From Rhodobacterales bacterium (GTDB taxonomy: Bacteria > Pseudomonadota > Alphaproteobacteria > Rhodobacterales > Rhodobacteraceae), in the NCBI GenBank assembly GCA_002746935.1, contig PDRW01000041.1:1-41647 (forward strand): a DNA stretch of 41,647 bases, written 5' to 3'. Under the pieces are notes generated by a model. The model ran no database searches, was not told the DNA's origin, and worked only from the letters and a program-made list of their open reading frames with translations. The translations under genes were made by a program, and so were the position numbers. This document shows, in pieces, positions 9,933-37,491 of the stretch (position 1 is its first letter; every line of letters begins with the position of its first letter).

Positions 9933-10817
9933 ATGCGCGACATGCGGATTTGCTTCCATATCGGTGCCCACGAGACCGACAATGACCAGCTGGTGAAGTC
10001 TCTGCTGAAGAACGCAAAGGTTCTGCTCGCCAACAAGGTGGCGGTGCCGGGGCCGGGGCGTTACCGGCCGGTCATCAACAAGGTGCTGGACAAGCTGCGC
10101 GGCGGACGGGCGAGCCCCGACACCCAGGACGTGCTGCTCGAACAGATCCTCGACGCCGACGAACCCGAACGCCTGGTGCTGTCGAGCCCCTATTTCCTGT
10201 CGAACCACCCGGGCGCGCTGCGCAATGGACGCCTCTACCCGCGCGCCGCCGCCGCCACCCTGGGGTTGCGCAACCTGTTTCCCGACAACGAGGTCGAATT
10301 CTTCATCGCGGTGCGCAACCCGGCCACCTTCGTGCCGGCGCTGCACATGCGGCTGCAAAGCGCCCCGTTCACCGAATATACCGCCGGGATCGACCCCGAC
10401 ATGCTGGTCTGGTCCGACGTGATCCGCGACATCCGCGCCGCCTGCCCCGACGCGCCGGTCACCGTCTGGTGCAACGAGGATACGCCGCTGATCTGGCCGG
10501 AGGTGATGCACCGGATCACCGGGATTGCGCCGGAAACCCAGCTCATGGGCGGGTTCGACATTCTCGGCCGGATCATCGCCCGGGAGGGCATGAAGCGCCT
10601 GCGCGCCTATCTCGGCGCCCACCCGCCCGCGACCGAGGACCAGCGCCGCCGCATCCTTGCCGCCTTCCTCGACAAATACGCGCTTGAAGACGAGGTCGAG
10701 GAGGAACTCGACCTGCCGGGCTGGACGCCGGACCTCGTCGCCCAGTTCGGCGAGGTCTATGACGACGACATGACCGAACTGAGCCGTATCGACGGGGTGC
10801 GGCTGATTGAAGCATAA
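9933..10817 (+). CDS. Hypothetical protein with a sulfotransferase-like N-terminus
   Basis: A ~294-residue soluble protein. It begins MRDMRICFHIGAHETDN, which resembles the HIGxHKTG P-loop that opens bacterial sulfotransferase-like proteins, but the Lys-Thr-Gly needed to bind PAPS is replaced by Glu-Thr-Asp, so classical sulfotransferase activity is doubtful. Other visible stretches are LVLSSPYFLSNHPGAL and EFFIAVRNPATFVPAL, the latter like the second strand of such folds. The acidic C-terminus has no membrane segment. ATG 9933 and ATG 9942 are both possible starts. A 9-bp inverted repeat lies 70 bases after the stop. I would call it conserved-looking but functionally unassigned. Confidence 0.7.
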   Translation: MRDMRICFHIGAHETDNDQLVKSLLKNAKVLLANKVAVPGPGRYRPVINKVLDKLRGGRASPDTQDVLLEQILDADEPERLVLSSPYFLSNHPGALRNGRLYPRAAAATLGLRNLFPDNEVEFFIAVRNPATFVPALHMRLQSAPFTEYTAGIDPDMLVWSDVIRDIRAACPDAPVTVWCNEDTPLIWPEVMHRITGIAPETQLMGGFDILGRIIAREGMKRLRAYLGAHPPATEDQRRRILAAFLDKYALEDEVEEELDLPGWTPDLVAQFGEVYDDDMTELSRIDGVRLIEA

Positions 10818-21281: not shown

Positions 21282-21451
21282 CCTGCCAACCGATCCAGTC
21301 TCGTTCGTACCCGTTTAGGGTGCGGCCCCGGGAATGGCAACCGCTGAACCGGACGCCATGGCGCGCGCGGGCGCCGCACAGCGGTTGAATCGCGCCAGAG
21401 GTGTGATAGCCTCCGCGCATGTTTCCGCCGATTGCCGCCGCCCGGCCCGGT

Positions 21452-21634
21452 TCAGGGCTCGAATACCAGATCCAGCGCGACCCGGCGCGTGTCGATCACC
21501 CGTTTGCCCGCATGGGGAAAGTTCACCGTGACCCTGGCACCGATGCTGGATTGCACCTGGCCGGTGCCCCAGTCGGGCCGCTCCGGGTGGCGGACCAGAT
21601 CGCCCGGGCTCAACAGCGCCGCAAATTCGCTCAT
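21452..21634 (-). CDS. DUF3553 small protein
   Basis: A 60-residue protein with the DUF3553 pattern: LLSPGDLVRHPERPDWGTGQVQ followed by RVTVNFPHAGKRVID. Its short beta-rich, SH3-like look resembles the CarD/UvrD-tail class of protein-interaction modules, but no function is known. GGGAGACGGAAA precedes ATG 21634. It diverges from the chpT-like gene with only 31 bases between the start codons, so the two promoters must overlap. Confidence 0.85.
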   Translation of the reverse strand: MSEFAALLSPGDLVRHPERPDWGTGQVQSSIGARVTVNFPHAGKRVIDTRRVALDLVFEP

Positions 21635-21665
21635 TTTCCGTCTCCCTGACCTTGCGAGGCCCTGC

Positions 21666-22298
21666 ATGACCCCCGATCCTTCGTCCACCGCCACCGATCA
21701 GCCCCAGCCCGACCTTGTGGCGCTGGTGGGCTCGCGCATGGCGCATGACCTCAACAACCCGATCGGGGCGATCGCCAATGGGGTGGAGCTGCTCGCCCTC
21801 ACCGGCGAGGCGCAGGGGCCGGAACTCGCGCTGATCAGCGAAAGCGTGGAGAATGCACGCCGCAGGATCAAGGCCTTTCGCATCGCTTTCGGCCACGCGG
21901 CCCCCGGACAAAGCGTTTCGGCACGCGAGATCGCCGAAGCGACCGCGCCCGGACCCGGCGGGCGCCGGCTCGTGGTCGACTGGCCGCTCACAACCGATCT
22001 GCCCCGGCGCGACGCCAGGCGGGTGATGCTGGCGCTGATGTGCCTCGAAAGCGCCATGCCATGGGGCGGCCGGGCAGAGGTGCGCGCAGGTGGCGGAACG
22101 GACGCCGGCGGCTGGCAGATCATGGCAGAAGCGGAGCGGATGCAAACCGACCCCGGGCTTTGGGCGATGCTCGAAGGCGGGCCGGTGCCCGCCGGCCTCA
22201 CCGCCAATACGGTCCATTTCGCCCTGCTCGCGCGCGACCTCGGGGGACGCGTGACCCGGCTCGAAACCACCGCAACCACGGTTTCGCTCGCCTTCTGA
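21666..22298 (+). CDS. chpT: ChpT-like histidine phosphotransferase
   Basis: A 210-residue protein with an N-terminal dimerisation helix pair carrying the phospho-accepting histidine in SRMAHDLNNPIGAIANG, and a degenerate ATPase-like C-terminal domain. In alphaproteobacteria ChpT relays phosphate from the hybrid kinase CckA to CtrA and CpdR, controlling cell cycle or motility; in Rhodobacterales CtrA mainly governs motility and gene transfer agents. The start at 21666 has GCGAGG about seven bases upstream. CckA and CtrA are not in the window. The gene ends at a 14-bp perfect palindrome (22301-22314). Confidence 0.88.
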   Translation: MTPDPSSTATDQPQPDLVALVGSRMAHDLNNPIGAIANGVELLALTGEAQGPELALISESVENARRRIKAFRIAFGHAAPGQSVSAREIAEATAPGPGGRRLVVDWPLTTDLPRRDARRVMLALMCLESAMPWGGRAEVRAGGGTDAGGWQIMAEAERMQTDPGLWAMLEGGPVPAGLTANTVHFALLARDLGGRVTRLETTATTVSLAF

Positions 22299-22434: not shown

Positions 22435-23580
22435 CTACTGCCCGGTCAGCCGGTAGGGCAGATAGGCGATCAGCAGCGTCACGTTGCCGACCGTGTTGAG
22501 CGCCTGAACCGCAATGTTGTCGCCGCCCTTGTTGGCTTCGATTCCCTGGACCAGCCGGCCGGAGGAAAACAGGCTGACCAGTTCCGGCGAGTTCTGGAAC
22601 GCGGTGTGGCCGATCAATGTGCCGTCGTTGAACTGGCTGAGGTCCACCACATAGACCCCAAGCCGGCGCAACGTTTCGAGATTGCGCCTTTCGCCGAGCC
22701 GCGGGGTGCCGCCGGCGATCAGGCTCGACACCTGAAGCGCCCGGTCGCGCCCCGAGACCATCACCGCGAGGTCGAGCCGGTTGAGGTCGAGCCCCGCGAT
22801 CTGGCTGCGGAACACATCAATGCTGATGTCGGGTTCGGCCAGCAGCACGCCGTTGATCCGGTTCAGCGTTGCCCGGTCGCGGTTCAGCACCAGCCGGTTG
22901 AGCCCCTCCATGACCAGAAAGCCGCCCATCGAATGGGCGATCACGTTGACCTCGGTCGCACGGGTTTTCGTCAGCGCTTTCAGCGTTCTGACGAACTGGT
23001 CGCGGGAATAGAGCGTGGAGTCGCGGTCGTAGAGATAATGCGTGAGCTGGTCCGCCGAAGGCCAGGCAAACAGCACCACCGGACCGGGCAGATGGTAGTC
23101 GGCGGCAAGCTGTGCGGTGTTCAGCACCGATTCGGCAAAGCTCGCCCTGTAGCCATGCACATAGAGCGTCACATGGCGTTTCGCCGGCGGCAATGGCGCC
23201 AGCGCGCGGTTTACCGCGGCAATGAACGCCGCCTCGCTCTGGTAGCGTTCGGACCCCACCATCAGGAAATCCCGCGCCGGATCGGCCTTGGCGGTGGGCA
23301 GCGCCAGAGCGCCCGGGTCGCGATCCGGCGGAACCGACATGTCGTAGCGCCCGAAATGCAGCTCCTGCCCGCGCCCGGACCCGAATTCCGGCCGCGTCCC
23401 GTCTTCTTCCCGGGCGACCTGCTGGTTGCGCGATGTGGCCATGAAAACGGTCTGCACCTTGTCGACGGGGCCGTCGAAGGGCAGAAGCCCCGGCTGCGGC
23501 GCGCAACCGGCGACGAGCCCGGAGCCGAGCAGGAGCCACATGATCCAGACAGCGCGGACCCTGCTGAACAACGCTCTCAT
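22435..23580 (-). CDS. Alpha/beta hydrolase lipoprotein (DUF900 family)
   Basis: A 381-residue secreted hydrolase. The N-terminus has a lipoprotein signal with lipobox VAGC, so the mature protein would start at lipidated Cys26. The alpha/beta hydrolase core shows VHGY at 141-144 (oxyanion region) and the nucleophile elbow AHSMGG with Ser217. The ATSRNQQ region near residue 50 and WPSADQLTHYLYDRDS are typical of DUF900 proteins, annotated as esterases of unknown substrate. It is convergent with chpT and separated from proA by a repeat-containing gap. Membrane anchoring suggests action on lipids or peptidoglycan-side esters, which is inference. Confidence 0.88.
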   Translation of the reverse strand: MRALFSRVRAVWIMWLLLGSGLVAGCAPQPGLLPFDGPVDKVQTVFMATSRNQQVAREEDGTRPEFGSGRGQELHFGRYDMSVPPDRDPGALALPTAKADPARDFLMVGSERYQSEAAFIAAVNRALAPLPPAKRHVTLYVHGYRASFAESVLNTAQLAADYHLPGPVVLFAWPSADQLTHYLYDRDSTLYSRDQFVRTLKALTKTRATEVNVIAHSMGGFLVMEGLNRLVLNRDRATLNRINGVLLAEPDISIDVFRSQIAGLDLNRLDLAVMVSGRDRALQVSSLIAGGTPRLGERRNLETLRRLGVYVVDLSQFNDGTLIGHTAFQNSPELVSLFSSGRLVQGIEANKGGDNIAVQALNTVGNVTLLIAYLPYRLTGQ

Positions 23581-23849: not shown

Positions 23850-25124
23850 TCAGGGCCGCAGCGTGCCGTCGCCCTCGACCAGGTATTTGAAACTGGTGAG
23901 CTGTTCCGCCCCCACGGGGCCGCGCGCATGCAGCTTGCCGGTAGCGATGCCGATTTCCGCCCCCATGCCGAACTCGCCGCCATCGGCGAACTGGGTCGAG
24001 GCATTGCGCATCAGGATCGCCGAATCGATCCGCTCGAAGAAACGGGCGGCGGCGGCATCGTCCTCGGTGAGGATCGCCTCGGTGTGATGCGACGAATAGG
24101 CATTGATATGGGCAATGGCCGCATCCACATCGGCCACCAGCTTCGCGGCGATGTCCATGTCGAGATATTCCCGGCCCCAGTCTTCTTCCGTCGCCGCGAC
24201 CGTGCCCCGGAGCCCCGGCCCCGCATGGACACGCACGCCCGCCGCCATCAGATCGTCGAGCACCGACTGGCCCAGCGCCGCCGCATCCTCGTGGATCAGC
24301 AGGCATTCCGCCGCGCCGCAGATGCCGGTGCGGCGGGTCTTGGCGTTCATCACCACCGCCCGGGCTTTCTCCGGGTCGGCCGCCTTGTCGAGATAGACAT
24401 GCACGATGCCTTCGAGATGGGCAAACACCGGCACCCGCGCCTCGCGCTGCACCAGCCCCACCAGCCCCTTGCCGCCGCGCGGCACGATCACGTCGACGAA
24501 GTCGACCATGTGCAGAAGTGCGCTGACCGCCGCGCGGTCGCGGGTGGGCACCAGCTGGATCGCGTCTTCCGGCAGGCCCGCGGCCGTCAGCCCCGCCACC
24601 AGACCGGCATGGATCGCCTGCGAGGAATGGAAACTCTCCGATCCGCCGCGCAGGATCACCGCATTGCCCGCCTTCAGCGCCAGCGCCCCGGCATCGGCGG
24701 TGACATTGGGGCGGCTCTCGTAGATCACCCCGATCACGCCCAGCGGGGTGCGGACCCGCTTGATATGGAGGCCGGAGGGGCGGTCCCATTCGGCCATCAC
24801 CGCGCCCACCGGGTCGGGGAAGCCCGCCACCGCCCGGAGCCCCGCGGCGATCCCGGCGATCCGCTCCGCGTCGAGCGCGAGACGGTCCATCATCGCCGGG
24901 GTCAGCCCCTTTTCGCGGCCGAAATCGAGGTCTCTGGCATTGGCCGCAAGGATCTCCGCCTCCCCCGCAAGGATCGCCTCCGCCGCCGCCTCGAGCGCTT
25001 TGGCCTTGGCCTCGGCCGGCGCAAAAGCGAGCCCCGCCGCCGCCCGTTTCGCCCGCGCGCCGATGTCCTGCATCAGGGCCGTGATGTCCGCGATGTCCTT
25101 TTGGCTGTCCGTGCCGGTTTCCAT
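23850..25124 (-). CDS. proA: Gamma-glutamyl phosphate reductase
   Basis: A 424-residue aldehyde dehydrogenase-fold enzyme that reduces gamma-glutamyl phosphate to glutamate semialdehyde in proline synthesis. Diagnostic stretches are [18 protein letters not shown] near 129-146, catalytic Cys269 in [11 protein letters not shown], and [12 protein letters not shown]. Length and motifs are normal, so it looks functional. In many alphaproteobacteria proB and proA are adjacent after obg; here they are on the same strand but about 9.8 kb apart, with the seven-gene operon between. Immediately before its ribosome site is a 12-bp unit repeated three times, each unit containing AAAGGG on the minus strand. 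Confidence 0.96.
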
Positions 25125-25374: not shown

Positions 25375-26658
25375 TTGATCGTTCCGAACATCGTTCCGAA
25401 CCATGTGCAGGACATGCTGAAACGCGTCCGCGCGCTCTATTTCGGCGCCGAAGACGAAAGCCTGATGCAGCCCGACGGGGCCGATGTCGCGCCCTTTACC
25501 CGCGCCCGCAAGGCCTCGGCCGGGAGCATCCGCGCGCTCTGGGCCGCGCTCCGCGCCGCCGGCAAGGGGTCGAACGATGCTGAAGCCCTGCTGGCCGACC
25601 ACGCGACCCTCGCCAGCGCCGAGGCCTACGGACGCAATATCGAAAACATGATCGGCACGGTGAAACTGCCCGTCGGCCTCGTCGGGCCGCTGCGGGTGCG
25701 CGGCCTCCATGCGGAGGGCGATTTCCACCTGCCGCTCGCCACCACCGAAGCCGCCCTCGTGGCCTCCTATGCCCGCGGCGCCCGGGCCGCCACGCTGGCG
25801 GGCGGGATTTCCACCGCGGTGCTCTACGAAGGCGTGCTGCGCAGCCCTGCCTTCGTGTTTGCCAGCCTGCTCGACGCCGGCCGCTTCGTCGATTGGGTGG
25901 TGGAGAATGTGGCGCTTCTGAAAGACGCCGCCGAGGCCACCACACGCTTCGGCAAGCTGGTGTCGCTGGAACCGGTGATCGACAACAACGTGGTGTTTCT
26001 GCTCTGCCGCTATACCACCGGCGAGGCGGCGGGTCAGAACATGGTGACCATCGCCACCGAAGCGCTGGGGCGGATGGCCGCCGCCCGCAGCCCGGTGCCG
26101 CCCGAACGCTGGTATGTGGAGGGCAATTTCTCCGGCGACAAGAAGGCCACCTCGCTCGGCACGCTTACCGGGCGCGGCCGCAAGGTCTCGGCCTCGGTGG
26201 TGCTGCCGGAAGAGGTGGTGACGCGGGGTCTGCGCAGCAGTATCGATGCGATGCTCGATTACGGGCGCATCGCCGGGCTGGGCGCGCTTCTGTCGGGCCA
26301 GTTCGGGGCGCAGGCGCATTACGCCAATGCGCTGGCGGCCTTCTATATCGCCACCGGTCAGGACGCCGCCTGCGTCGCCGAAAGCGCGGTGGGCTTCACC
26401 CGGATGGAACGCCGTGACGACGGGCTGTTCTGCTCGGTGACCCTGCCCAACATCCTTGTGGGCAGTGTCGGCGGTGGCACCGGGTTGCCGAGCCAGCGCG
26501 CGGCGCTCGATCTGGTGGGGGTGGAGGGCGAAGGCAGCGCCGCCGCGCTTGCCGAGCTGACCGCGGCGCTCTGTCTTTGCGGCGAGATTTCCATCGTCGC
26601 CGCCATGGCCGCGGGGCATTTCACCCGCGCCCACCACAAGCTCGCGAGGGCGAGATGA
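25375..26658 (+). CDS. Hydroxymethylglutaryl-CoA reductase, class I type
   Basis: A 427-residue HMG-CoA reductase that would reduce HMG-CoA to mevalonate. Class I features are clear: ENMIGTVKLPVGLVGPL at 90-106, TTEAALVAS with catalytic Glu125, GNFSGDKKATSLG with Lys256, GQDAACVAES with Asp330, GGGTGLPSQ, and the C-terminal catalytic His420 in GHFTRAH. All four catalytic residues align with the human enzyme. The nucleotide-binding segment is TGEAAGQNMV instead of the usual TGDAMGMNMV. There is no membrane domain. It starts with TTG, with GGAGG seven bases upstream; the first residues repeat IVPN. It leads a seven-gene operon, and no other mevalonate-pathway enzyme is present. Class I in a bacterium of this group suggests horizontal origin. 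Confidence 0.9.
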   Translation: MIVPNIVPNHVQDMLKRVRALYFGAEDESLMQPDGADVAPFTRARKASAGSIRALWAALRAAGKGSNDAEALLADHATLASAEAYGRNIENMIGTVKLPVGLVGPLRVRGLHAEGDFHLPLATTEAALVASYARGARAATLAGGISTAVLYEGVLRSPAFVFASLLDAGRFVDWVVENVALLKDAAEATTRFGKLVSLEPVIDNNVVFLLCRYTTGEAAGQNMVTIATEALGRMAAARSPVPPERWYVEGNFSGDKKATSLGTLTGRGRKVSASVVLPEEVVTRGLRSSIDAMLDYGRIAGLGALLSGQFGAQAHYANALAAFYIATGQDAACVAESAVGFTRMERRDDGLFCSVTLPNILVGSVGGGTGLPSQRAALDLVGVEGEGSAAALAELTAALCLCGEISIVAAMAAGHFTRAHHKLARAR

Positions 26659-27650
26659 GCACAGCCCCTGAAACCTCCCCGCAAGGGCCTGTTGAAGAGC
26701 CCCCCAAAGCCGCCCCAAAAACCTCCCCGGCAGAGCCGCTCCTGCGCCGCCTCTGGATCTATCAGGCCGAACGCTTCCCCCTCGCCCGCACGATCCCGCT
26801 GCTGGCGGTGTTTTCGGCGGCGAGCGTCAATGTCTCCGCCCTGCTCGCCGGCCGCCCGCTCCCCGGCGCGGGCGCCTATCTCACCGCCGCGGCGCTGTCG
26901 CTCGGCATCTTCTTCCAGATGCGCGCCTTCGACGAGGCGAAAGACGCCGAAGACGACCGCCGCTTCCGCCCCGAACGCCCGATCCCGCGCGGGCTGGTGA
27001 GCCTGCGGCTGATCATCCGGCTCGCAGGCGCGACCGGTGCGGCGATGCTGGCGCTCGCCGCCGCCTGGACCCCGGGCACGCTCCTGCTGCTGCTCCTCGC
27101 CTGGAGCTGGCTCGGGCTGATGACGGCGGAGTTCTTCGCCCCCTCCTGGCTGAAGGCGCGGCCCTTGGCCTATCTGCTCAGCCATATGGCGATCATGCCG
27201 CTGATCGATCTGATGCTCACCGGGGTGGAATGGACCGCCGCGCCCGGGTCCGGCCATGTCCCCGCCATGGCGCTCTGGCTGTTCCTCGGGCTCAGCTTCG
27301 TCAACGGCACGGTGCTGGAGATCGGCCGCAAGACCTGGGCGCCGGAAAACGAACGCCCCGGAGTCGAGACCTATTCGAAGCTCTGGGGACCGGCGCGCGC
27401 CGCGCTCATCTGGCTCGCTGTGGTCGGGCTCGGGCTGGTGCTGCTGCTCACCCTCGGGCTGGCGCTTGGCGCCTTCTGGCCGATCGCGCTGGTGGGGGTC
27501 ACGGGCTTCGCCCTCGCCGCTCGGGCCGCCCTCGGCTTCCGCCGCGCACCGTCGCCCGCCGCCCAGACAAGGCTCGACACGCTCTCCGGGCTCTGGGTGC
27601 TCGCCTGCTACGGCGCCGCCGGCTTCCTGCCGCTGGTCTTCGGAGGCTGA
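26655..27650 (+). CDS. UbiA-like membrane prenyltransferase
   Basis: A 331-residue polytopic protein with a Pro-rich cytosolic N-terminus (1-28) and about eight or nine hydrophobic helices. Residues 89-112 carry the first Asp-rich motif, FDEAKDAEDD (Asp93, Asp97, Asp100), followed by RPERPIPRG, as in UbiA-family enzymes that use Mg2+ and a polyprenyl diphosphate. The second Asp-rich motif is not canonical: the matching loop reads RKTWAPENERPGVETYS, so the acceptor or the metal site may differ. The start ATG overlaps the HMG-CoA reductase stop by four bases. An isoprenoid-transfer role in the operon is inferred; the acceptor is unknown. Confidence 0.82.
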   Translation: MSTAPETSPQGPVEEPPKAAPKTSPAEPLLRRLWIYQAERFPLARTIPLLAVFSAASVNVSALLAGRPLPGAGAYLTAAALSLGIFFQMRAFDEAKDAEDDRRFRPERPIPRGLVSLRLIIRLAGATGAAMLALAAAWTPGTLLLLLLAWSWLGLMTAEFFAPSWLKARPLAYLLSHMAIMPLIDLMLTGVEWTAAPGSGHVPAMALWLFLGLSFVNGTVLEIGRKTWAPENERPGVETYSKLWGPARAALIWLAVVGLGLVLLLTLGLALGAFWPIALVGVTGFALAARAALGFRRAPSPAAQTRLDTLSGLWVLACYGAAGFLPLVFGG

Positions 27651-27655
27651 CGCCG

Positions 27656-30109
27656 ATGCACCCGATCCTCGCCCCCCATGAGATCACCCGCGCCGCCGCC
27701 GGCGGCAAGGGCGCGGCCTTGCAGGCGCTCGCGGCCGCCGGTTTCGACGTGCCGCCCTTCTTCGTGATCCGCGCCGAGGCCCTGCACCAGCAAGACACCC
27801 GCCCGGTGCTGGACGACGCCCTCACCGCCGCCCTGCCCGCCGCCCTTGCCGCCCTCGGCCCCGGACCTTACGCGGTGCGCTCCTCGGGCCGGGCCGAAGA
27901 CGGCGCCGAGCACAGCCATGCCGGCCAGTTTCACACCGCGCTCGACGTGGAGGCCGCCGCTGTGGCCGGGGCGATCGCCGAGGTCTGGGCCTCCGGCCTC
28001 ACCGACAGCCTCAGGGCCTATGCCGCGCTCAAGGGCACCGCGCCTGCGGGCGCGCCGGCCATCGTGGTGCAGCAGATGGTGCCCGCCCGCGCCGCCGGTG
28101 TGGCGTTTTCCGCCGACCCGGTGAGCGGGCTGCGCGACCGGCAGGTGGTTTCCGCCGTCGCCGGGCTGGGCGAGGCGCTGGTCTCGGGCGCGGCGGATGG
28201 CGAGGACTGGACCTTCGACGCCACCGGACCCGTCACCACCCCGCAAAACCCCGAGGTTCTCACCCTGCCCGAAGCCGAGGCTGTCGCCGCCCTCGCCACC
28301 CGGGCGGAAGCGCATTTCGGCACCCCGCAAGACATCGAATGGGCCTTCGACGGCGCCCGGCTCCACATGCTGCAATCGCGCCCGGTCACCACCCCGCTCC
28401 GGCCCCGGCCGCACCCGGACAACACTCTGGTGGTGCTCGACAATTCCAATATCGTCGAAAGCTACCCCGGGCTCGTGAGCCCGCTCACCTACAGCTTCGC
28501 CACCTATGTCTACGCCCGGGTCTACCGCGCCTTCGTCGGGCTGCTCGGGGTGCCGCCCCGCGAAATCGAAGCCAATGCTCCGGTGTTCGACAACCTGCTC
28601 GCGCGGGTCTCGGGGCGGGTCTATTACAACCTCGGCAACTGGTATCGGGCGCTGGCGCTGTTGCCGGGGTTTTCGCGCAACCGCGACCATATGGAAACCA
28701 TGATGGGGGTCGAAAGCCCCCTCCCCGACGAGCTCAAGGCCAGCATCGGCCCCGCCCCCGCCACCGGACTCACGCGCCTTGCCGAAAGCTTGCGCACCGC
28801 GCGGGTGGCGCTTGGGCTCCTCTGGGCGGCGCTGCGGCTCCCCGCCACCCGGCGCCGCTTCATGGCCCGGCTCGAAGCGGCGCTCACCGCCGGGCCGGTG
28901 CCGGAACAGGCCAGCCTCACCGAGCTTGCCGCGATCTGGCGCCGGATCGAGGCCGATCTGCTCGACCGCTGGGACGCCCCGCTGATCAATGATTTCCTCT
29001 GCATGATGGCCTATGGCGGCTCGCGCAAACTGCTTGAGCGCTGGGCCGGCGTCGAGGGGCTGGCGCTCCACAACGATGTGATGATCGGCCAGGGCGACAT
29101 CATCTCCGCCGAACCCGCCCGCGCAATCGCAGAGATGGGGCGGATGGCGGCCGACGCCGGGATTGCCGACAGGCTCACCGAAGGCCCGGAGGTGCTCGCC
29201 GCCCATCCGGCGCTGCATGCCGCCTTCGAGGCCTATCTCGCCCGTTTCGGCGACCGCTGCACCGAGGAGCTGAAGCTCGAATCGATCCCGCTGGGCGAAG
29301 ACCCGGCCGGGCTTCTTGCCGCCATTGCCGCGTCGGCCGCGCGCCCCCCGGTGCCTGCGCCGGCGCGTCCCGCCCCCGACTGGCACGCGCTGATCCCCGG
29401 GCACCCGCTGCGCCGCGCGCTCGCCCGCGCCGCCACCGCCTATGCCAAGGCCCGGGTGCGCGACCGTGAAAACCTCCGCTTCGAACGCACCCGGATCTTC
29501 GGCCATGCGCGGCGGGTGCTGCGCGCCATGGGGCGGGAATTCTGGGCCATGGGGCGTCTCGACGATCCGCGCGACGTGTTTCTGCTGACCGTCGGCGAGC
29601 TTCTCGGCGCCATCGAAGGCAACGCCCTGACCCGCGATCTGCGCGCCCTTGCCGCCGCCCGCGCCGAAGAGCGCGCCCGCGACGCGGCCACGGACGACCC
29701 GCCCGAACGCATTCTTGCGCGCGGCGCCACCCTGCCGCCGGGCCAGACCAACACCGCCGCCGCCCCGGAACCGCAGGCGCCCGGCACCACCCGCAAGGGC
29801 ACCGGCTGCTCGGCGGGCCGTGTCACCGCCCCGGCCCGGGTGATCCGCGACCCCATGCGCGAGCACCTCGCCACCGGCGAAATCCTCGTCGCCCGCAACA
29901 CCGACCCGGGCTGGATCGCGGTTTTCGCCGGCGCCAGCGCCATCGTGGTCGAAAAAGGCTCGCTGCTGTCGCATTCGGCCATCGTCGCGCGGGAACTCGG
30001 CATTCCCTGCGTGGTCGGCCTCAAGGGCGCCACCACATGGGTGCCCGATGGCGCGCGCCTCACGGTCGACGGCGAAACCGGGGAGGTGCGCCTTGCCGGT
30101 GACCAATGA
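27656..30109 (+). CDS. PEP-synthase-like dikinase lacking the PEP-binding barrel
   Basis: An 817-residue protein. Residues 1 to ~265 are an ATP-grasp domain like the N-terminus of PEP synthase (GGKGAALQAL, YAVRSSGRAEDG, AGVAFSADPVSG, DIEWAFDG, LQSRPVT). A ~450-residue middle region has no motif that I recognise. The C-terminal ~90 residues are the swivelling phosphohistidine domain, with His773 in SLLSHSAIVARELGIPCVVG. The TIM barrel of true PEP synthases is absent. This ATP-grasp / substrate / His order is that of rifampicin phosphotransferase, so it probably phosphorylates a small molecule or lipid alcohol with ATP, giving AMP and phosphate. It follows the prenyltransferase after five bases. 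The substrate is unknown. Confidence 0.85.
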   Translation: MHPILAPHEITRAAAGGKGAALQALAAAGFDVPPFFVIRAEALHQQDTRPVLDDALTAALPAALAALGPGPYAVRSSGRAEDGAEHSHAGQFHTALDVEAAAVAGAIAEVWASGLTDSLRAYAALKGTAPAGAPAIVVQQMVPARAAGVAFSADPVSGLRDRQVVSAVAGLGEALVSGAADGEDWTFDATGPVTTPQNPEVLTLPEAEAVAALATRAEAHFGTPQDIEWAFDGARLHMLQSRPVTTPLRPRPHPDNTLVVLDNSNIVESYPGLVSPLTYSFATYVYARVYRAFVGLLGVPPREIEANAPVFDNLLARVSGRVYYNLGNWYRALALLPGFSRNRDHMETMMGVESPLPDELKASIGPAPATGLTRLAESLRTARVALGLLWAALRLPATRRRFMARLEAALTAGPVPEQASLTELAAIWRRIEADLLDRWDAPLINDFLCMMAYGGSRKLLERWAGVEGLALHNDVMIGQGDIISAEPARAIAEMGRMAADAGIADRLTEGPEVLAAHPALHAAFEAYLARFGDRCTEELKLESIPLGEDPAGLLAAIAASAARPPVPAPARPAPDWHALIPGHPLRRALARAATAYAKARVRDRENLRFERTRIFGHARRVLRAMGREFWAMGRLDDPRDVFLLTVGELLGAIEGNALTRDLRALAAARAEERARDAATDDPPERILARGATLPPGQTNTAAAPEPQAPGTTRKGTGCSAGRVTAPARVIRDPMREHLATGEILVARNTDPGWIAVFAGASAIVVEKGSLLSHSAIVARELGIPCVVGLKGATTWVPDGARLTVDGETGEVRLAGDQ

Positions 30110-31187
30110 CATCGCCACCCGCGCGCGGTTCGACCATATCCGCTATGCCCAGCTCTGGGAGGATGCCGATGTGCTGGTGGCGGCGATGCGCCCCGACCCG
30201 GGCCAGCGCTTCCTCTCCATCGCCTCTGCGGGCGACAATGCGCTGGCGCTGCTGACGCTCGACCCCGAACGGGTGACGGCGGTCGATCTCTCGGCGGCGC
30301 AGCTCGATTGCCTGCGGCTGCGTATCGGCGCCATGCGCGCCCTTGACCATGGGGCGTTTCTCAAACTCATGGGATCGCGCCCGAGCCACCGCCGTGGCCC
30401 CCTGCTCGCCCGCGCCATCGCCGGTCTGCCCGCGCCCACCCGCGCCCGCTGGCAGGCGCTCGCCCCCGAGGTCGAGGCCCATGGCGCCGGCGGCATCGGC
30501 CGGTTCGAGCGCTATTTCCGCATCTTCCGCCGCTTCGTGCTGCCGCTGGTCCATTCCCGCGCCACCATCGAGGCCACCTTCATCTCGCGCCCGCCCGCCG
30601 AACGCGTCCGCTTCCTCGACACCCGCTTCGCCACCTGGCGCTGGAACCTGATGCTGAAGCTGTTCTTCTCGCGCTTCGTGATGGGCCGGCTCGGGCGGGA
30701 CGCGGCGTTTTTCGACCATGTGGAAGGCTCGCTGCCCGCGCATGTCGCCCGGCGCGTCCGCCATGCGGGGGTGACGCTCGACCCGGCCGAAAACCCTTTC
30801 CTGCACTGGATCCTCAAGGGCGGCCATGGCGCGGCGCTGCCGATGCCCTGGCGGGCCGAGAACTACGCCCTGATCCGCGAGCGGCTCGACCGGCTGGAGC
30901 TTGTCGAAGGCCCGCTCGAAGCCTGCGACACCGGGCCGGTCGACGGGTTCAACCTCTCGGACATTTTCGAATACATGTCGCCCGCCGCCGCCGAAAACGC
31001 CTATGGTGCCCTGCTCGCCCGCGCCGCCCCCGGCGCGCGGCTGGTCTACTGGAACATGATGGCCCCGCGCCGGGTGCCCGCGCCGCTTGCCGACCGGGTC
31101 ACCACGCTCACCGCGCTGGAAGACCGGCTGAAAGCGCAGGACAAGGCGTTTTTCTACGCCGATTTCGTCATCGAGGAGGTGCGGTGA
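30093..31187 (+). CDS. DUF3419 / BtaA-like SAM-dependent aminocarboxypropyl transferase
   Basis: A ~364-residue protein with the DUF3419 pattern shared with BtaA, which transfers the 3-amino-3-carboxypropyl group of SAM to diacylglycerol in betaine-lipid synthesis. It shows IRYAQLWEDADVL, then LSIASAGDNALALL and VTAVDLSAAQLDCLRLR as the SAM-binding fold, FERYFRIFRRFVLPL in the middle, and NLSDIFEYM and LVYWNMMAPRR near the end. I chose TTG 30093 because GGGAGG lies six bases upstream; GTG 30099 is the alternative. It overlaps the preceding gene by 17 bases. No BtaB-like N-methyltransferase is nearby, so the expected product would carry an unmethylated homoserine group. Acceptor unknown. Confidence 0.82.
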   Translation: MPVTNDIATRARFDHIRYAQLWEDADVLVAAMRPDPGQRFLSIASAGDNALALLTLDPERVTAVDLSAAQLDCLRLRIGAMRALDHGAFLKLMGSRPSHRRGPLLARAIAGLPAPTRARWQALAPEVEAHGAGGIGRFERYFRIFRRFVLPLVHSRATIEATFISRPPAERVRFLDTRFATWRWNLMLKLFFSRFVMGRLGRDAAFFDHVEGSLPAHVARRVRHAGVTLDPAENPFLHWILKGGHGAALPMPWRAENYALIRERLDRLELVEGPLEACDTGPVDGFNLSDIFEYMSPAAAENAYGALLARAAPGARLVYWNMMAPRRVPAPLADRVTTLTALEDRLKAQDKAFFYADFVIEEVR

Positions 31188-32512
31188 TGGCGGTTGCCCT
31201 GCCGATCCTCACCGTGCTGGGCGCGATCGGCGCGATGCTCGCCGCCATGGCGTTCCTTGCCCGCCATGCGCGGGCCGCGGGCTGGCCCGCCGAAGTGCAA
31301 CGCAAGCTCGTCCATGTGGGCGCCGGGCTGTTCGCCCTGACCCTGCCGCTCCTCTTCACCGAGGACTGGCCGGTCTATCTGCTGATCGGCGCGACCCTCG
31401 CGGCGATGGCGGCGATGCGCCTGCCGGCGCTGCGCCACGGCGGCCCCGGCGCGCTGCTCCACTCCATCGACCGCCGCTCCTGGGGCGACTACCTGCTTGC
31501 GCTTGCGGTGCTGCTGGTCTTCGTGCTCTCCGACCGCGACCCGCTGCTCTACACCCTGCCGCTCGCGGTTCTCACGCTGGGCGACAGCGCCGCCGCGCTT
31601 GCGGGTTCCGGCTACGGCCGCCGCCGTTTCGCCACCGCCGAGGGCCACAAGACCCTCGAAGGCAGCGCCATCCTGTTCATGGTCACGGTGATCCTCACCA
31701 TGGTCGCGGCGCTGCTGCTGTCCGACATTCCGCGCGAAAACGTGGTGGTGCTGGCCTTTCTCGTGGCCGGTTTCGGCGCGCTGGTGGAGGCCGACAGCTG
31801 GCGCGGCTTCGACAACCTGTTCCTGCCGCTCGGCATCTGGATCGTTCTGGCCTACCATGGCAGCGCCCCGGCGACGGAGCTGCTGGGCATCGCGGCGCTG
31901 TTTGCGCTGGCGCTGGCGGGTTTCTTCCAGATCGGCACCCGCCTCGGGGCGCCGCCTCCGGTCGCCCGGGTCTATCTGATCGCGGCGTTTCTGCTGATCT
32001 CCTCGACCGCCCTCTACAACGCCGTGCTGCCGCTGGCGATGCTGGCGGCGCATCTGATTGCCGAACGCCGCGCCCCGGGCACAGACCGCCAGCCGCAGCT
32101 CGACGCGGTGGCGGTGCTCGCCGTGCTCGGCTTCGGCTGGCTCGCCGCCGGCAATGCCACCGGACTCAACGCCATCACCTTCTTCGGCGCCTCCATGGCC
32201 GGGCTGATCGTGGCGCTGGCGGCAATCGCGCTGTCGCCGCTGTCGCTGGGGGCCGCCTCAGCGCCGCTCTCGCTCGTGGGGGCGCTCACCGCAGTGGCCT
32301 GGCTCTGGCTCATTGGCTTCAACAGCCCGGACCAGGCCTGGCTGTCACGGCCGGAACTCCTGATCATGGCCACACTGATGCCCGCCGGTTTCCTGCCGCT
32401 CCGCCTGGCGCGGCTGTTCCACCGCCAGCGGATGCTGCGCCTCGGCCTGCTCACCGCCGTCGTTCCCATCGTCGCCTATATCCTTCTCGTTCTCCACGGA
32501 GGCCCCGCATGA
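31187..32512 (+). CDS. Phytol/dolichol kinase-like integral membrane protein
   Basis: A 441-residue protein, hydrophobic throughout, with about a dozen predicted membrane helices. The first half has the signatures of CTP-dependent polyprenol kinases and related cytidylyltransferases: EVQRKLVHVGAGLF near residue 40, LTLGDSAAALAGSGYG near 125-140, and HKTLEGSAILF soon after. The second half is extra hydrophobic sequence not expected in a single-domain phytol kinase (usually ~200-300 residues), suggesting a fused or duplicated membrane domain. GAGGAGG lies seven bases before the ATG, and the start overlaps the DUF3419 stop by one base. It would phosphorylate or activate a lipid alcohol; the specific substrate is inferred to be isoprenoid. 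Confidence 0.78.
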   Translation: MAVALPILTVLGAIGAMLAAMAFLARHARAAGWPAEVQRKLVHVGAGLFALTLPLLFTEDWPVYLLIGATLAAMAAMRLPALRHGGPGALLHSIDRRSWGDYLLALAVLLVFVLSDRDPLLYTLPLAVLTLGDSAAALAGSGYGRRRFATAEGHKTLEGSAILFMVTVILTMVAALLLSDIPRENVVVLAFLVAGFGALVEADSWRGFDNLFLPLGIWIVLAYHGSAPATELLGIAALFALALAGFFQIGTRLGAPPPVARVYLIAAFLLISSTALYNAVLPLAMLAAHLIAERRAPGTDRQPQLDAVAVLAVLGFGWLAAGNATGLNAITFFGASMAGLIVALAAIALSPLSLGAASAPLSLVGALTAVAWLWLIGFNSPDQAWLSRPELLIMATLMPAGFLPLRLARLFHRQRMLRLGLLTAVVPIVAYILLVLHGGPA

Positions 32513-33348
32513 GTGAGACGTTTTCCGTAACCAATCCCGCCGCCCGTGTCACAGTGTTCCCGGATGCGCCACACTGGGACGGACACCGCACCATGGCGCT
32601 CGGGGGTTTCGCCTGTGACACGGGCCCAGCCGGGGCGGCGGTGCTCGCCGAGGCCGAGGCGGCGGCGCGGGCGCAGGGGGCCGAACGCCTGCTCGCGCCG
32701 ATGGACGGCACCACCTGGAACCCCTACCGGCTGGTGACCGAAAGCGACGCCACCCCGCCCTTCCTGATGGAACCGGTCTCCGGCCCCGAGGACGAAGCCG
32801 CTTTCGCCGCTGCCGGTTTCACCCCCGTCGCGCGGTATTTCTCGGCCCGCCTGAGCCTTGCCACGATGCACAACCCGGCCCCGCTGCGGCCCTTCGAGAT
32901 CGAGATCTGGGACGGCAAGGATCCGGAGGCCCGGTTCGGCGAGGTCTACGAGCTTTCGCTCGAAGCCTTCGCCCGCAATGCCTTCTACACCCCGATCTCC
33001 CGCGCCGCCTTCCTCGGCCTCTACATGCCCCATGTGCCGATGATGCGGCCCGAATTTCTGCTGTTCGCCCGCGACCCTTCAGGGCGGCTCGCGGGCTTCC
33101 TGTTCGGCATCCCCAATTTCGCCGAAGGCCCCCGGCCCACATCGGTGATCCTCAAGACCTATGCCAGCCGCGCCCCCGGCGCCGGTCAGGCGCTGGCCTG
33201 GGCGTTCCACAACACCGCCCGCGACGCCGGCTTCACCCATGCGATCCACGCGCTGATCCACGAGACCAACGGCTCCGCCCGCCGCAGCGCCCGGCTTGGC
33301 GCCGAGGTCTTCCGCCGCTATGCGCTCCTCGGCAAGAGGCTCGCGTGA
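32509..33348 (+). CDS. GNAT-family N-acyltransferase
   Basis: A 279-residue protein with a GNAT-like C-terminal half: PEFLLFARDPSGRLAGFLFGIP for the central strands, then SRAPGAGQALAWAFHNTARDAG in place of the acetyl-CoA-binding loop, and ETNGSARRSARLGAEVFRRY at the end. The N-terminal half has RLLAPMDGTTWNPYRL, which also occurs in GNATs that act on hydrophobic or amino-acid substrates. It begins in a 4-base ATGA overlap with the kinase-like gene. In this operon it may acylate the amino group introduced by the DUF3419 enzyme, which is inference. Confidence 0.75.
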   Translation: MSETFSVTNPAARVTVFPDAPHWDGHRTMALGGFACDTGPAGAAVLAEAEAAARAQGAERLLAPMDGTTWNPYRLVTESDATPPFLMEPVSGPEDEAAFAAAGFTPVARYFSARLSLATMHNPAPLRPFEIEIWDGKDPEARFGEVYELSLEAFARNAFYTPISRAAFLGLYMPHVPMMRPEFLLFARDPSGRLAGFLFGIPNFAEGPRPTSVILKTYASRAPGAGQALAWAFHNTARDAGFTHAIHALIHETNGSARRSARLGAEVFRRYALLGKRLA

Positions 33349-34820
33349 CCACGCCCCCCGGCCCCACCGTGCCCACTGTGCCTCCCGGCCCCCCTGCCCC
33401 CCCGGCCACGCTGGTCGCGGCCTTCGCCCGCGCCGTCGCCGCGCATCCCACCCGCGACGCCCTCGTCGACGCCCGCCACGGCGCCACAAGCTTCGCCGAA
33501 CTCGACCGCCAGTCAGACGCTTTCGCCGCCCGCCTCCAGACCCGCGGCCTCACCAAAGGCGACCGCGTGCTGGTCGCCGCCCCGGTCTCGGCCGCGCTCT
33601 ACATCATCCTTGCCGGGCTCTGGAAGGCCGGGCTGGTCGCGGTCTTCCCCGAACCCGCCATGGGGCTCAAAGGCCTGTTCCACGCGATCCGCGCCACCCG
33701 GCCCAAGGCCTTCGCCGCGGCCGGCCCCTACCGCGCGCTGTCGCTCCTGCCGCCGCTCTGGGGGCTCACCCGCCTTGCCCCCGGCGGCACCGGCCGGCCG
33801 GCCCCGACCCCGCTTTCCGCCGAAGACCCGGCGCTGATCTCCTTCACCTCCGGCTCCAGCGGCACCCCCAAGGGGATCAGCCGCAGCCATGGTTTCCTGA
33901 TGGCCCAGAACGCCGCCGTCGCGCCGCTGCTCTCCAGCGAAGGCACGGTGCGCCCGGTGCGTGACCTCGTGGGCTTCCCGGTCTTCGTGCTGGTGAACCT
34001 CGCCGCCGGACGCCCCTCGGTGCTGCCCAACTGGCGCCTCACACGGCAGGACCGCGCCAATGGCCGCGCGATCCGCGACTGGATCGCCCGCTCCGGCGCC
34101 ACCCGCGCCCTGCTGCCGCCCTCGATCTGCGAACACCTCACCGAGGTGGGCCTGCCGGAGGGGCTCACCGACATCTTCACCGGCGGTGGCCCGGTCTTCC
34201 CCGACACCATGCGCCGCCTCCTCGCCGCACGCCCCGGCCTCCGCCTCACCGCGGTCTACGGCTCCACCGAGGCCGAACCCATCGCCGAAATCGCGTGTCA
34301 CGACCTCGCGCCGGACGACTGGGCGGAGATGGAGGCGGGCGGCGGGTTGCTCGCCGGCCGCCCGGTCCCCGGGCTTGCGCTCAGGCTGGTCGACGGCGAA
34401 ATCCAGGTCGCGGGGCCCCATGTGAACCCGGGCTATCTCGACCCGCGCCACGACGCCGCCAACAAGATCCGCGACGGCGACCGCATCTGGCACCGCACCG
34501 GCGACGCCGGCCGCCTCGACGCCCGGGGCCGCCTCTGGCTTCTCGGCCGCTGGCGCCCCGAGGCCGCATCCCCGATGCCGCTGCAAATCGAAACCGCCGC
34601 CCGCACATGGCCCGGCGTCCGCCGCGCCGCCCTGCTGCGCGATCATACCCCTCCGGTGCTCGCCATCGAAGGCGACCCCTCGGGGCGCGCCTCATGGCAA
34701 ACCCGCGCCAAAGCCCTCGGCATCGCCCGCGTCGTCTCCGTCAGACACATCCCGCTCGACCGTCGCCACGCCTCCAAGACCGACGAAAAACGCCTCATTC
34801 GGATGATCGACGCCAAATAG
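33345..34820 (+). CDS. AMP-forming acyl-CoA synthetase / ligase
   Basis: A 491-residue adenylate-forming enzyme. After a Pro-rich first 20 residues it shows the P-loop ISFTSGSSGTPKG at 165-177, YGSTEAEP for adenine binding, the hinge region RTGDAGRLDARGRLWLLGR, and the C-terminal catalytic Lys478 in HASKTDEKRL. All steps for acyl-adenylate formation and transfer appear intact. It starts with GTG in a 4-base overlap with the GNAT gene and is the last gene of the operon. It probably activates a fatty or isoprenoid acid for the pathway. Convergent proB follows after 106 bases. Confidence 0.87.
   Translation: MTTPPGPTVPTVPPGPPAPPATLVAAFARAVAAHPTRDALVDARHGATSFAELDRQSDAFAARLQTRGLTKGDRVLVAAPVSAALYIILAGLWKAGLVAVFPEPAMGLKGLFHAIRATRPKAFAAAGPYRALSLLPPLWGLTRLAPGGTGRPAPTPLSAEDPALISFTSGSSGTPKGISRSHGFLMAQNAAVAPLLSSEGTVRPVRDLVGFPVFVLVNLAAGRPSVLPNWRLTRQDRANGRAIRDWIARSGATRALLPPSICEHLTEVGLPEGLTDIFTGGGPVFPDTMRRLLAARPGLRLTAVYGSTEAEPIAEIACHDLAPDDWAEMEAGGGLLAGRPVPGLALRLVDGEIQVAGPHVNPGYLDPRHDAANKIRDGDRIWHRTGDAGRLDARGRLWLLGRWRPEAASPMPLQIETAARTWPGVRRAALLRDHTPPVLAIEGDPSGRASWQTRAKALGIARVVSVRHIPLDRRHASKTDEKRLIRMIDAK

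Positions 34821-34926: not shown

Positions 34927-37491
<2,565 letters not shown>

Follow-up and report, generated by a model that had tools for sequence, protein, structure and literature searches.

A conserved seven-gene operon with an altered HMG-CoA-reductase-like protein likely directs the synthesis of an unusual lipid-like product

Introduction

What is made by seven adjoining genes that bring together a relative of 3-hydroxy-3-methylglutaryl-coenzyme A (HMG-CoA) reductase (HMGR), a UbiA-family protein, a DUF3419 protein and four further proteins? This question is raised by a 41,647-nucleotide stretch of a Rhodobacterales bacterium (contig PDRW01000041.1; the whole stretch is called the window here), in which seven open reading frames (ORFs) lie on the plus strand at positions 25375-34820. 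An initial annotation had read them as an operon for a lipid with an isoprenoid part and a homoserine-type head, possibly N-acylated, with the HMGR relative as the source of mevalonate. We found that the seven genes are kept together in many genomes and likely form one pathway for an unusual lipid-like product, in which the HMGR-like protein has a changed substrate pocket.

The pathway is real, conserved and apparently undescribed. Among the titles and abstract starts listed from the open-licence literature, none described the seven-gene set, a weak absence given that subscription papers lie mostly outside that literature, and the annotation's remark that it knew of no described pathway of this kind was left standing. 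The term DUF3419 occurs in four papers of that literature. Other UbiA and HMGR neighbourhoods are described in PMC12419801. Many culturable bacteria, among them Ruegeria, Paracoccus, Thioclava, Devosia and Bosea, apparently carry the seven-gene pathway without a described product. Were that product a lipid, bacterial membranes would gain a class; a signal or an antibiotic would represent a new biosynthetic family. An HMGR relative changed at two of the contacts for HMG and statins would be a natural repurposing of a textbook enzyme.

Conservation of the operon

The seven ORFs are joined, in gene order, by a 4-base overlap, a 5-base gap, an 11-base overlap and three further 4-base overlaps. Every junction is therefore an overlap or gap of at most 5 bases, except the 11-base overlap, which goes with a chosen GTG start at 30099. 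These ORFs and junctions bear out the annotated placement of seven tightly joined plus-strand genes.

We searched 84,980 species genomes for relatives of the DUF3419 protein, obtained at least 508 and read the best 80 loci. All seven genes were present in the same order and on the same strand in 74 out of 80 loci, far beyond chance, and each of the remaining six runs into the end of its contig, which leaves 0 to 41 bases on the cut side. The co-occurrence and order of the seven families across genomes, on which the annotated operon depended, was thus confirmed. We rejected the idea that the genes are unrelated neighbours with no joint function, whose probability is negligible when their order is kept in these 74 loci and the flanks mostly differ.

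With starts chosen by script, the six junctions spanned no more than 10 bases in 58 out of 63, 55 out of 65, 74 out of 75, 65 out of 79, 73 out of 78 and 72 out of 76 loci, in gene order. Pairwise distances between the genes, taken from the 58 loci where all seven copies passed the filters, correlated at 0.77-0.94, with none of 200 permutations as high for any of the 21 pairs, a correlation that is also explained by shared ancestry alone.

The spread of the operon is patchy and its content fixed. Orthologues of the ligase (52-61% identity) were present in 5 of the 59 genomes searched besides that of the window, and in none of the 6 congeners; gene order is unchanged across the seven genes in all five relatives with an orthologue. 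When 394 genomes were sampled evenly from the family, a DUF3419 protein scored at least 585 bits in 22 of them (that of the window included) and was a fragment at the end of a contig in one more, whereas matches in 32 others reached at most 119 bits. Genera of non-Rhodobacteraceae type (Hyphomicrobium, Bosea, Devosia, Chelativorans, Dongia, Anderseniella, Bauldia and Taklimakanibacter) accounted for 14 of the 80 loci.

The HMGR-like protein and mevalonate

The first gene (25375-26658, plus strand, TTG start) encodes a 427-residue HMGR-like protein that matched PF00368 at 348 bits and whose nearest solved relative was 6hr7. Residue counts for this and the other operon proteins cover 65 to 81 rows of at most 81, the window's row included, and omit copies cut by contig ends, outside the length range or without a script-chosen start codon. 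The 73 rows for the HMGR-like protein were drawn from loci L038-L117 and the window; L032-L036 lie outside this set, and L034 was left out of alignment A3.

The catalytic residues E90, K256, D330 and H420 (human Glu559, Lys691, Asp767 and His866) were invariant in all 73 rows, as were the equivalents of human Arg590, Asp690, Lys692 and Asn755. The operon protein has these features, and its family, in common with class I HMG-CoA reductase. By contrast with that enzyme, the place of Ser684 was taken by Glu (E249) in 73 out of 73 rows; this place precedes the invariant Asp-Lys-Lys partner by six residues, without an intervening gap. At the place of Lys735 all 73 rows had Ala (A300); a one-residue gap beside this place leaves the exact aligned partner uncertain, and the other gap placement gives I in 13, V in 55 and M in 5 rows, still with no Lys. 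Five aligned PDB chains from three HMGR enzymes keep the equivalents of both Ser684 and Lys735. PMC9500038 states the role of the two residues as HMG contacts, and PMC3875450 includes Ser684 in its list of pocket residues for human HMGR.

Searches of six host genomes found no HMG-CoA synthase and no diphosphomevalonate decarboxylase in any of them. Mevalonate kinase scored over the cut-off in none, with sub-threshold matches in two, including the window's genome, which is 83.9% complete. IspH, of the methylerythritol phosphate (MEP) route, was present in all six. We rejected mevalonate supply for bulk isoprenoids, given the pathway genes not found and the IspH present in these six genomes. Because two HMG contacts are changed in all 73 rows and the pathway enzymes were not found in the six hosts, the HMGR-like protein probably does not make mevalonate, and the annotated mevalonate step was not borne out.

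It is quite improbable that the protein makes mevalonate after all, from HMG-CoA perhaps derived from leucine breakdown, for an isoprenoid-homoserine lipid or a branched building block. Such a role would agree with the invariant catalytic residues and the four further conserved equivalents, with the sub-threshold kinase matches, and with position 298 near the Lys735 place, which is basic in 49 of the 73 rows (R 47, K 2; the rest Q 22, E 2) and might still bind a carboxylate. It is at odds with the Glu at the Ser684 place and the missing Lys735, with the failure to find the synthase, the decarboxylase or an over-cut-off kinase and the presence of IspH in the six genomes, and with the contig of a sister cluster, described below, that has no HMGR-like gene.

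We infer instead an HMGR-fold reductase that acts on another acyl thioester, with a predicted four-electron reduction and a changed acyl pocket. The pocket has given up a carboxylate-pairing cation and acquired, elsewhere, a potential anionic partner for an amine or amide.

Two local features of this gene were also seen. In the window, the start of the gene carries a directly repeated unit of 12 bases (25378-25401), which doubles the N-terminal residues to IVPNIVPN, a doubling absent from the four orthologues compared. In genome G019 (L034, 6303-7558) the HMGR-like gene matched in two frames, which indicates a frameshift or a sequence error.

The DUF3419 protein, the acyltransferase and a sister cluster

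The fourth gene (30099-31187, plus strand, GTG start) encodes a 362-residue DUF3419 protein (PF11899, 173 bits), predicted to transfer a 3-amino-3-carboxypropyl group from S-adenosylmethionine (SAM). It belongs to the same family as BtaA, the first enzyme of the betaine lipid diacylglyceryl-trimethylhomoserine (DGTS), and therefore probably carries out the same SAM-derived group transfer. The operon clade stood apart from BtaA-like proteins by score (at least 585 bits versus at most 119 bits), and genomes G452 and G504 carry both types. A BtaB-like methyltransferase adjoined at 4 of 11 other, BtaA-like DUF3419 loci, as judged by eye in the frame picked; at E 0.001, no further gene of the operon was found within 19.9 kb at any of the 11. 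Unlike the BtaA/BtaB pathway, the operon has no BtaB-type N-methyltransferase: Pfam detected no methyltransferase family among the seven proteins; of the two without a match, one has a GNAT fold and the other is polytopic in the membrane. We rejected DGTS as the product on the basis of the DUF3419 score separation and the locus context of the BtaA-like genes.

DUF3419 proteins with scores of 101-119 bits in four members of the bacterial family (L132-L135, near position 10000) had no BtaB-like neighbour in the frame picked; at L132 an aminotransferase-like ORF adjoined the DUF3419 gene by eye. These proteins possibly have a third DUF3419 role.

The sixth gene (32509-33348, plus strand) encodes a 279-residue tandem GNAT acyltransferase. 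It had no Pfam or NCBIfam match at E 0.01, and its AlphaFold model confirms the GNAT fold. Judging from this model, the protein could N-acylate an amine, which supports the N-acylation suggested at the outset. Ornithine, glutamine and sulfur-containing (SAL) aminolipids of Roseobacter are likewise amino-acid lipids, from the same bacterial family. According to PMC11631085 and PMC8319176, OlsBA-type aminolipids depend on a PF13444 N-acyltransferase and an O-acyltransferase, and SAL has the enzyme SalA. By contrast, PF13444 was absent from the four GNAT proteins scanned here.

A sister cluster was present in genome G219, from another family of the class. It holds in a row (L131, 6810-13655) a dikinase (784 bits), a DUF3419 protein (425 bits), a UbiA-like protein (85 bits) and a GNAT (60 bits), and then a phosphatidylserine-decarboxylase homologue (PF02666, 162 bits). 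Its UbiA-like protein has the same unusual second motif as that of the operon (see below). Its 14.9-kb contig showed no HMGR-like, kinase or ligase gene. Decarboxylation of a 3-amino-3-carboxypropyl group would leave an aminopropyl group, which supports our reading of the DUF3419 protein. The decarboxylase homologue beside the sister DUF3419 gene fits an amino-acid head, which strengthens the annotated SAM-derived step and, with it, a homoserine-type head. Samples of the class, the phylum and the order yielded no sister cluster beyond G219. Strong scores in the class and phylum samples were confined to the window's genome and to G219, the latter in the class sample (385 genomes). In scans with a DUF3419 profile that includes the G219 sequence, the score of G219 is partly by construction.

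The UbiA-like, dikinase, membrane and ligase proteins

The second gene (26655-27650, plus strand) encodes a 331-residue UbiA-family membrane prenyltransferase that matched PF01040 at 42 bits (cut-off 34.2). Like digeranylgeranylglyceryl phosphate synthase and other UbiA proteins, it has the first Asp-rich motif DxxxDxxxD, with D93, D97 and D101 present in 65 out of 65 rows. Usual UbiA prenyltransferases carry a second Asp-rich motif. By contrast, the operon protein lacks this motif in all 65 rows and has E..RK......E in its place, with E222, R225, K226, E233 and Y240 invariant. Its best PDB match was weak (E 0.057). Family and first motif thus agree with a UbiA-like prenyltransferase as annotated; the second motif does not.

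The third gene (27656-30109, plus strand) encodes an 817-residue phosphotransferase or ligase of the ATP-grasp/phospho-His dikinase type, which matched PF01326 and PF00391 only. Its His773 was present in 73 out of 74 rows, with one gap. No phosphoenolpyruvate (PEP)/pyruvate-binding barrel was found in it by Pfam at E 0.01, and the His domain is C-terminal, as in 5fbs. The nearest solved relatives, 5fbs (153 bits) and 5hv2, are both deposited as PEP synthase, and we take them to be rifampin phosphotransferases. The operon protein has ATP-grasp, middle and phospho-His domains, as rifampin phosphotransferase and the prodigiosin ligase PigC/RedH do; it differs from them in reaching only 153 bits to 5fbs and in falling far under the curated cut-offs of the RedH and PigC models (242 and 219 bits). 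We rejected PEP synthase activity because no PEP-binding barrel was found at E 0.01, although the best NCBIfam model, under its cut-off, is named for that enzyme.

The RedH and PigC matches, although far under the cut-offs, speak for another possible product, a small prenylated signal or antibiotic. The dikinase would then have the ligase role known from prodigiosin synthesis, and cytochrome P450 (P450) and sulfotransferase enzymes would vary the end product between strains. We consider this unlikely. The operon's two integral membrane enzymes point instead to a hydrophobic substrate, and further evidence for and against such a product comes from the flanking genes, described below.

The fifth gene (31184-32512, plus strand) encodes a 442-residue polytopic membrane protein with a probable phytol/dolichol-kinase-like N half and a C-terminal membrane part of about 200 residues. 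It had no Pfam or NCBIfam match at E 0.01, and Foldseek gave no PDB match at E 0.001. A weak match to a CDP-diacylglycerol-synthase-like fold was seen, and a second-look alignment ranked pyrophosphatases above CdsA. The kinase name comes from motifs that we take to be those of phytol and dolichol kinases. Of the annotated family names, those of genes 1-4 and 7 were upheld by Pfam matches and that of the GNAT by its fold, and the kinase name has these motifs and the weak fold match behind it.

The seventh gene (33345-34820, plus strand) encodes a 491-residue AMP-forming acid:CoA ligase-like protein resembling PRK09274 and OleC (PF00501, 139 bits), in which Glu309, Asp387 and Lys478 were invariant in 76 out of 76 rows. 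Its best NCBIfam model was NF006754 (256 bits, under the cut-off of 478), and the curated OleC equivalogs matched at 146 bits (cut-off 900) and 128 bits (cut-off 850). With scores this far under the equivalog cut-offs, we rejected the OleC olefin pathway.

HMG-CoA without its carboxylate resembles 3-hydroxybutyryl-CoA. One alternative is accordingly that the ligase supplies an acyl-CoA with which the GNAT acylates the amine, and that the HMGR-like protein converts a small hydroxyacyl-CoA (e.g. 3-hydroxybutyryl-CoA) into a diol, which would be phosphorylated by the kinases and become the backbone. We hold this to be somewhat unlikely. The GNAT and ligase genes lie no more than 10 bases apart in 72 of the 76 loci, and fatty-acid and olefin beta-lactone models come closest to the ligase. 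Set against this, the invariant Glu249 suggests an NH or OH partner where a plain methyl group would lie, and the sister cluster has a GNAT with no ligase on its contig.

Proposed pathway

In the pathway that we favour, the DUF3419 protein would transfer the 3-amino-3-carboxypropyl group of SAM to a lipid or prenyl alcohol at its hydroxyl. The resulting head would be of homoserine type, and the tandem GNAT would acylate its amine. The ligase would convert the head carboxylate to a CoA thioester, from which the HMGR-like protein would make a primary alcohol by reduction with NAD(P)H, its Glu249 facing the amine or amide; in the sister cluster the carboxylate would be decarboxylated rather than reduced. 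A prenyl chain would be added by the UbiA-like protein, and the membrane kinase and the dikinase would phosphorylate hydroxyls. In some strains a P450 would hydroxylate the product and a sulfotransferase would sulfate it. What holds this model together is that a DUF3419-made carboxylate would meet two different fates in the two cluster types, along with the changed pocket of the HMGR-like protein. The order of the steps and the acceptor are guesses, and so is the action of the ligase on the head carboxylate, for which feeding the GNAT is the main rival.

Taken as a whole, a single transferable biosynthetic operon that makes an undescribed lipid-like product by these steps is a tentative explanation, the best that we can offer. 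A more specific version is doubtful: that the HMGR fold was recruited to act on the homoserine head derived from SAM, reducing its carboxylate once activated, so that the operon yields a sphingoid-like N-acyl amino alcohol, ether-joined to a prenyl lipid, phosphorylated and sometimes hydroxylated and sulfated, which would make a new bacterial lipid class formed without serine palmitoyltransferase or mevalonate. The annotated lipid with an isoprenoid part and a homoserine-type head therefore kept the support of the conserved pathway, the DUF3419 protein, the GNAT and the UbiA family, and lost its mevalonate step.

Several points weigh against the favoured pathway, besides the mostly basic residue 298 and the shared ancestry mentioned above. 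The substrates and products of all seven proteins are predictions, and we know of no precedent for a ligase and an HMGR-fold enzyme that together reduce a carboxyl group in two steps. At the aligned place (in a gapped alignment) the ligase has no amino-acid-binding Asp; because of this, and of its nearest models, it may feed the GNAT and not the reductase. The best NCBIfam model for the third gene is NF004881, "phosphoenolpyruvate synthase", at 632 bits (under the cut-off of 883). Finally, there is a single sister cluster, in a genome that is 90% complete with 5% contamination, so that the genes missing from its contig could lie elsewhere and the decarboxylase swap is a lead only.

P450 and sulfotransferase genes beside the operon

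P450 genes were present, as raw counts, in the flanks of 22 of the 80 loci and directly beside the operon in 21. A P450 and sulfotransferase pair adjoined the operon in 14 out of 80 loci (e.g. L045, 2939-5328) and a second P450 type in 7 out of 80 (e.g. L043, 3991-5367), one of them merely a fragment. One further P450 was weak and lay 1.7 kb off. Both modules were seen on either side of the operon, and neither adjoins the window's own copy.

We compared one P450 of each type with NCBIfam. The nearest models were albaflavenone monooxygenase and pentalenene oxygenase, under the cut-offs, with a P450 of ribosomally synthesised and post-translationally modified peptides (RiPPs) third. In the PDB, the first type was nearest to two "putative P450" entries; CYP175A1 and a plant carotenoid P450 came next, and sterol demethylases ranked lower. 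That the nearest relatives are terpene oxidisers favours a prenyl part in the product. The isoprenoid part of the annotated lipid is thus supported by the UbiA-family protein and by terpene-type P450s beside some copies. In mycobacteria, sulfomenaquinone is tailored by a P450 and a sulfotransferase acting on a prenyl chain, an analogy that applies to the tailoring pair at the 14 loci only.

Insertion site and flanking genes

The operon of the window sits between proB (34927-36300; AA_kinase and PUA domains) on the right and proA (23850-25124; aldehyde dehydrogenase family match) on the left, both on the minus strand. proB adjoins proA in five of six congeners, the sixth having scaffold Ns there. 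Among the five operon-bearing relatives, proB adjoins proA in four, in which the operon is therefore located elsewhere; in the fifth (G032) no proB was found within the 1.5 kb examined. The operon has a GC content of 71.5%, against 67.9% and 68.3% on its two sides, and third-position GC is alike.

A plasmid collection contained one copy at 62%, plus seven weaker DUF3419 records. The copy lies on a 136.7-kb Roseinatronobacter plasmid, whose annotation covers six of the operon's genes; the HMGR-like gene would fall across the end of the record.

Flanks mostly differed among the 80 loci. An ABC-transporter ATPase family was the commonest in the flanks, at 27 of them, followed among recurring families by the P450 and the sulfotransferase; most of the other recurring families received no name from a search. 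These observations return to the signal or antibiotic considered above: patchy spread, a plasmid copy, the proB-proA site and changing tailoring genes are typical of specialised metabolism, and the ABC family would suit such a product. This family, however, has no fixed place, its median distance from the operon being 3 to 4 kb on both sides, and therefore no transporter is tied to the operon.

Near the operon, the window also carries a DUF900 alpha/beta hydrolase (22435-23580) and a histidine phosphotransferase (PF10090, ChpT-like; 21432-22298), which we judged unrelated to it.

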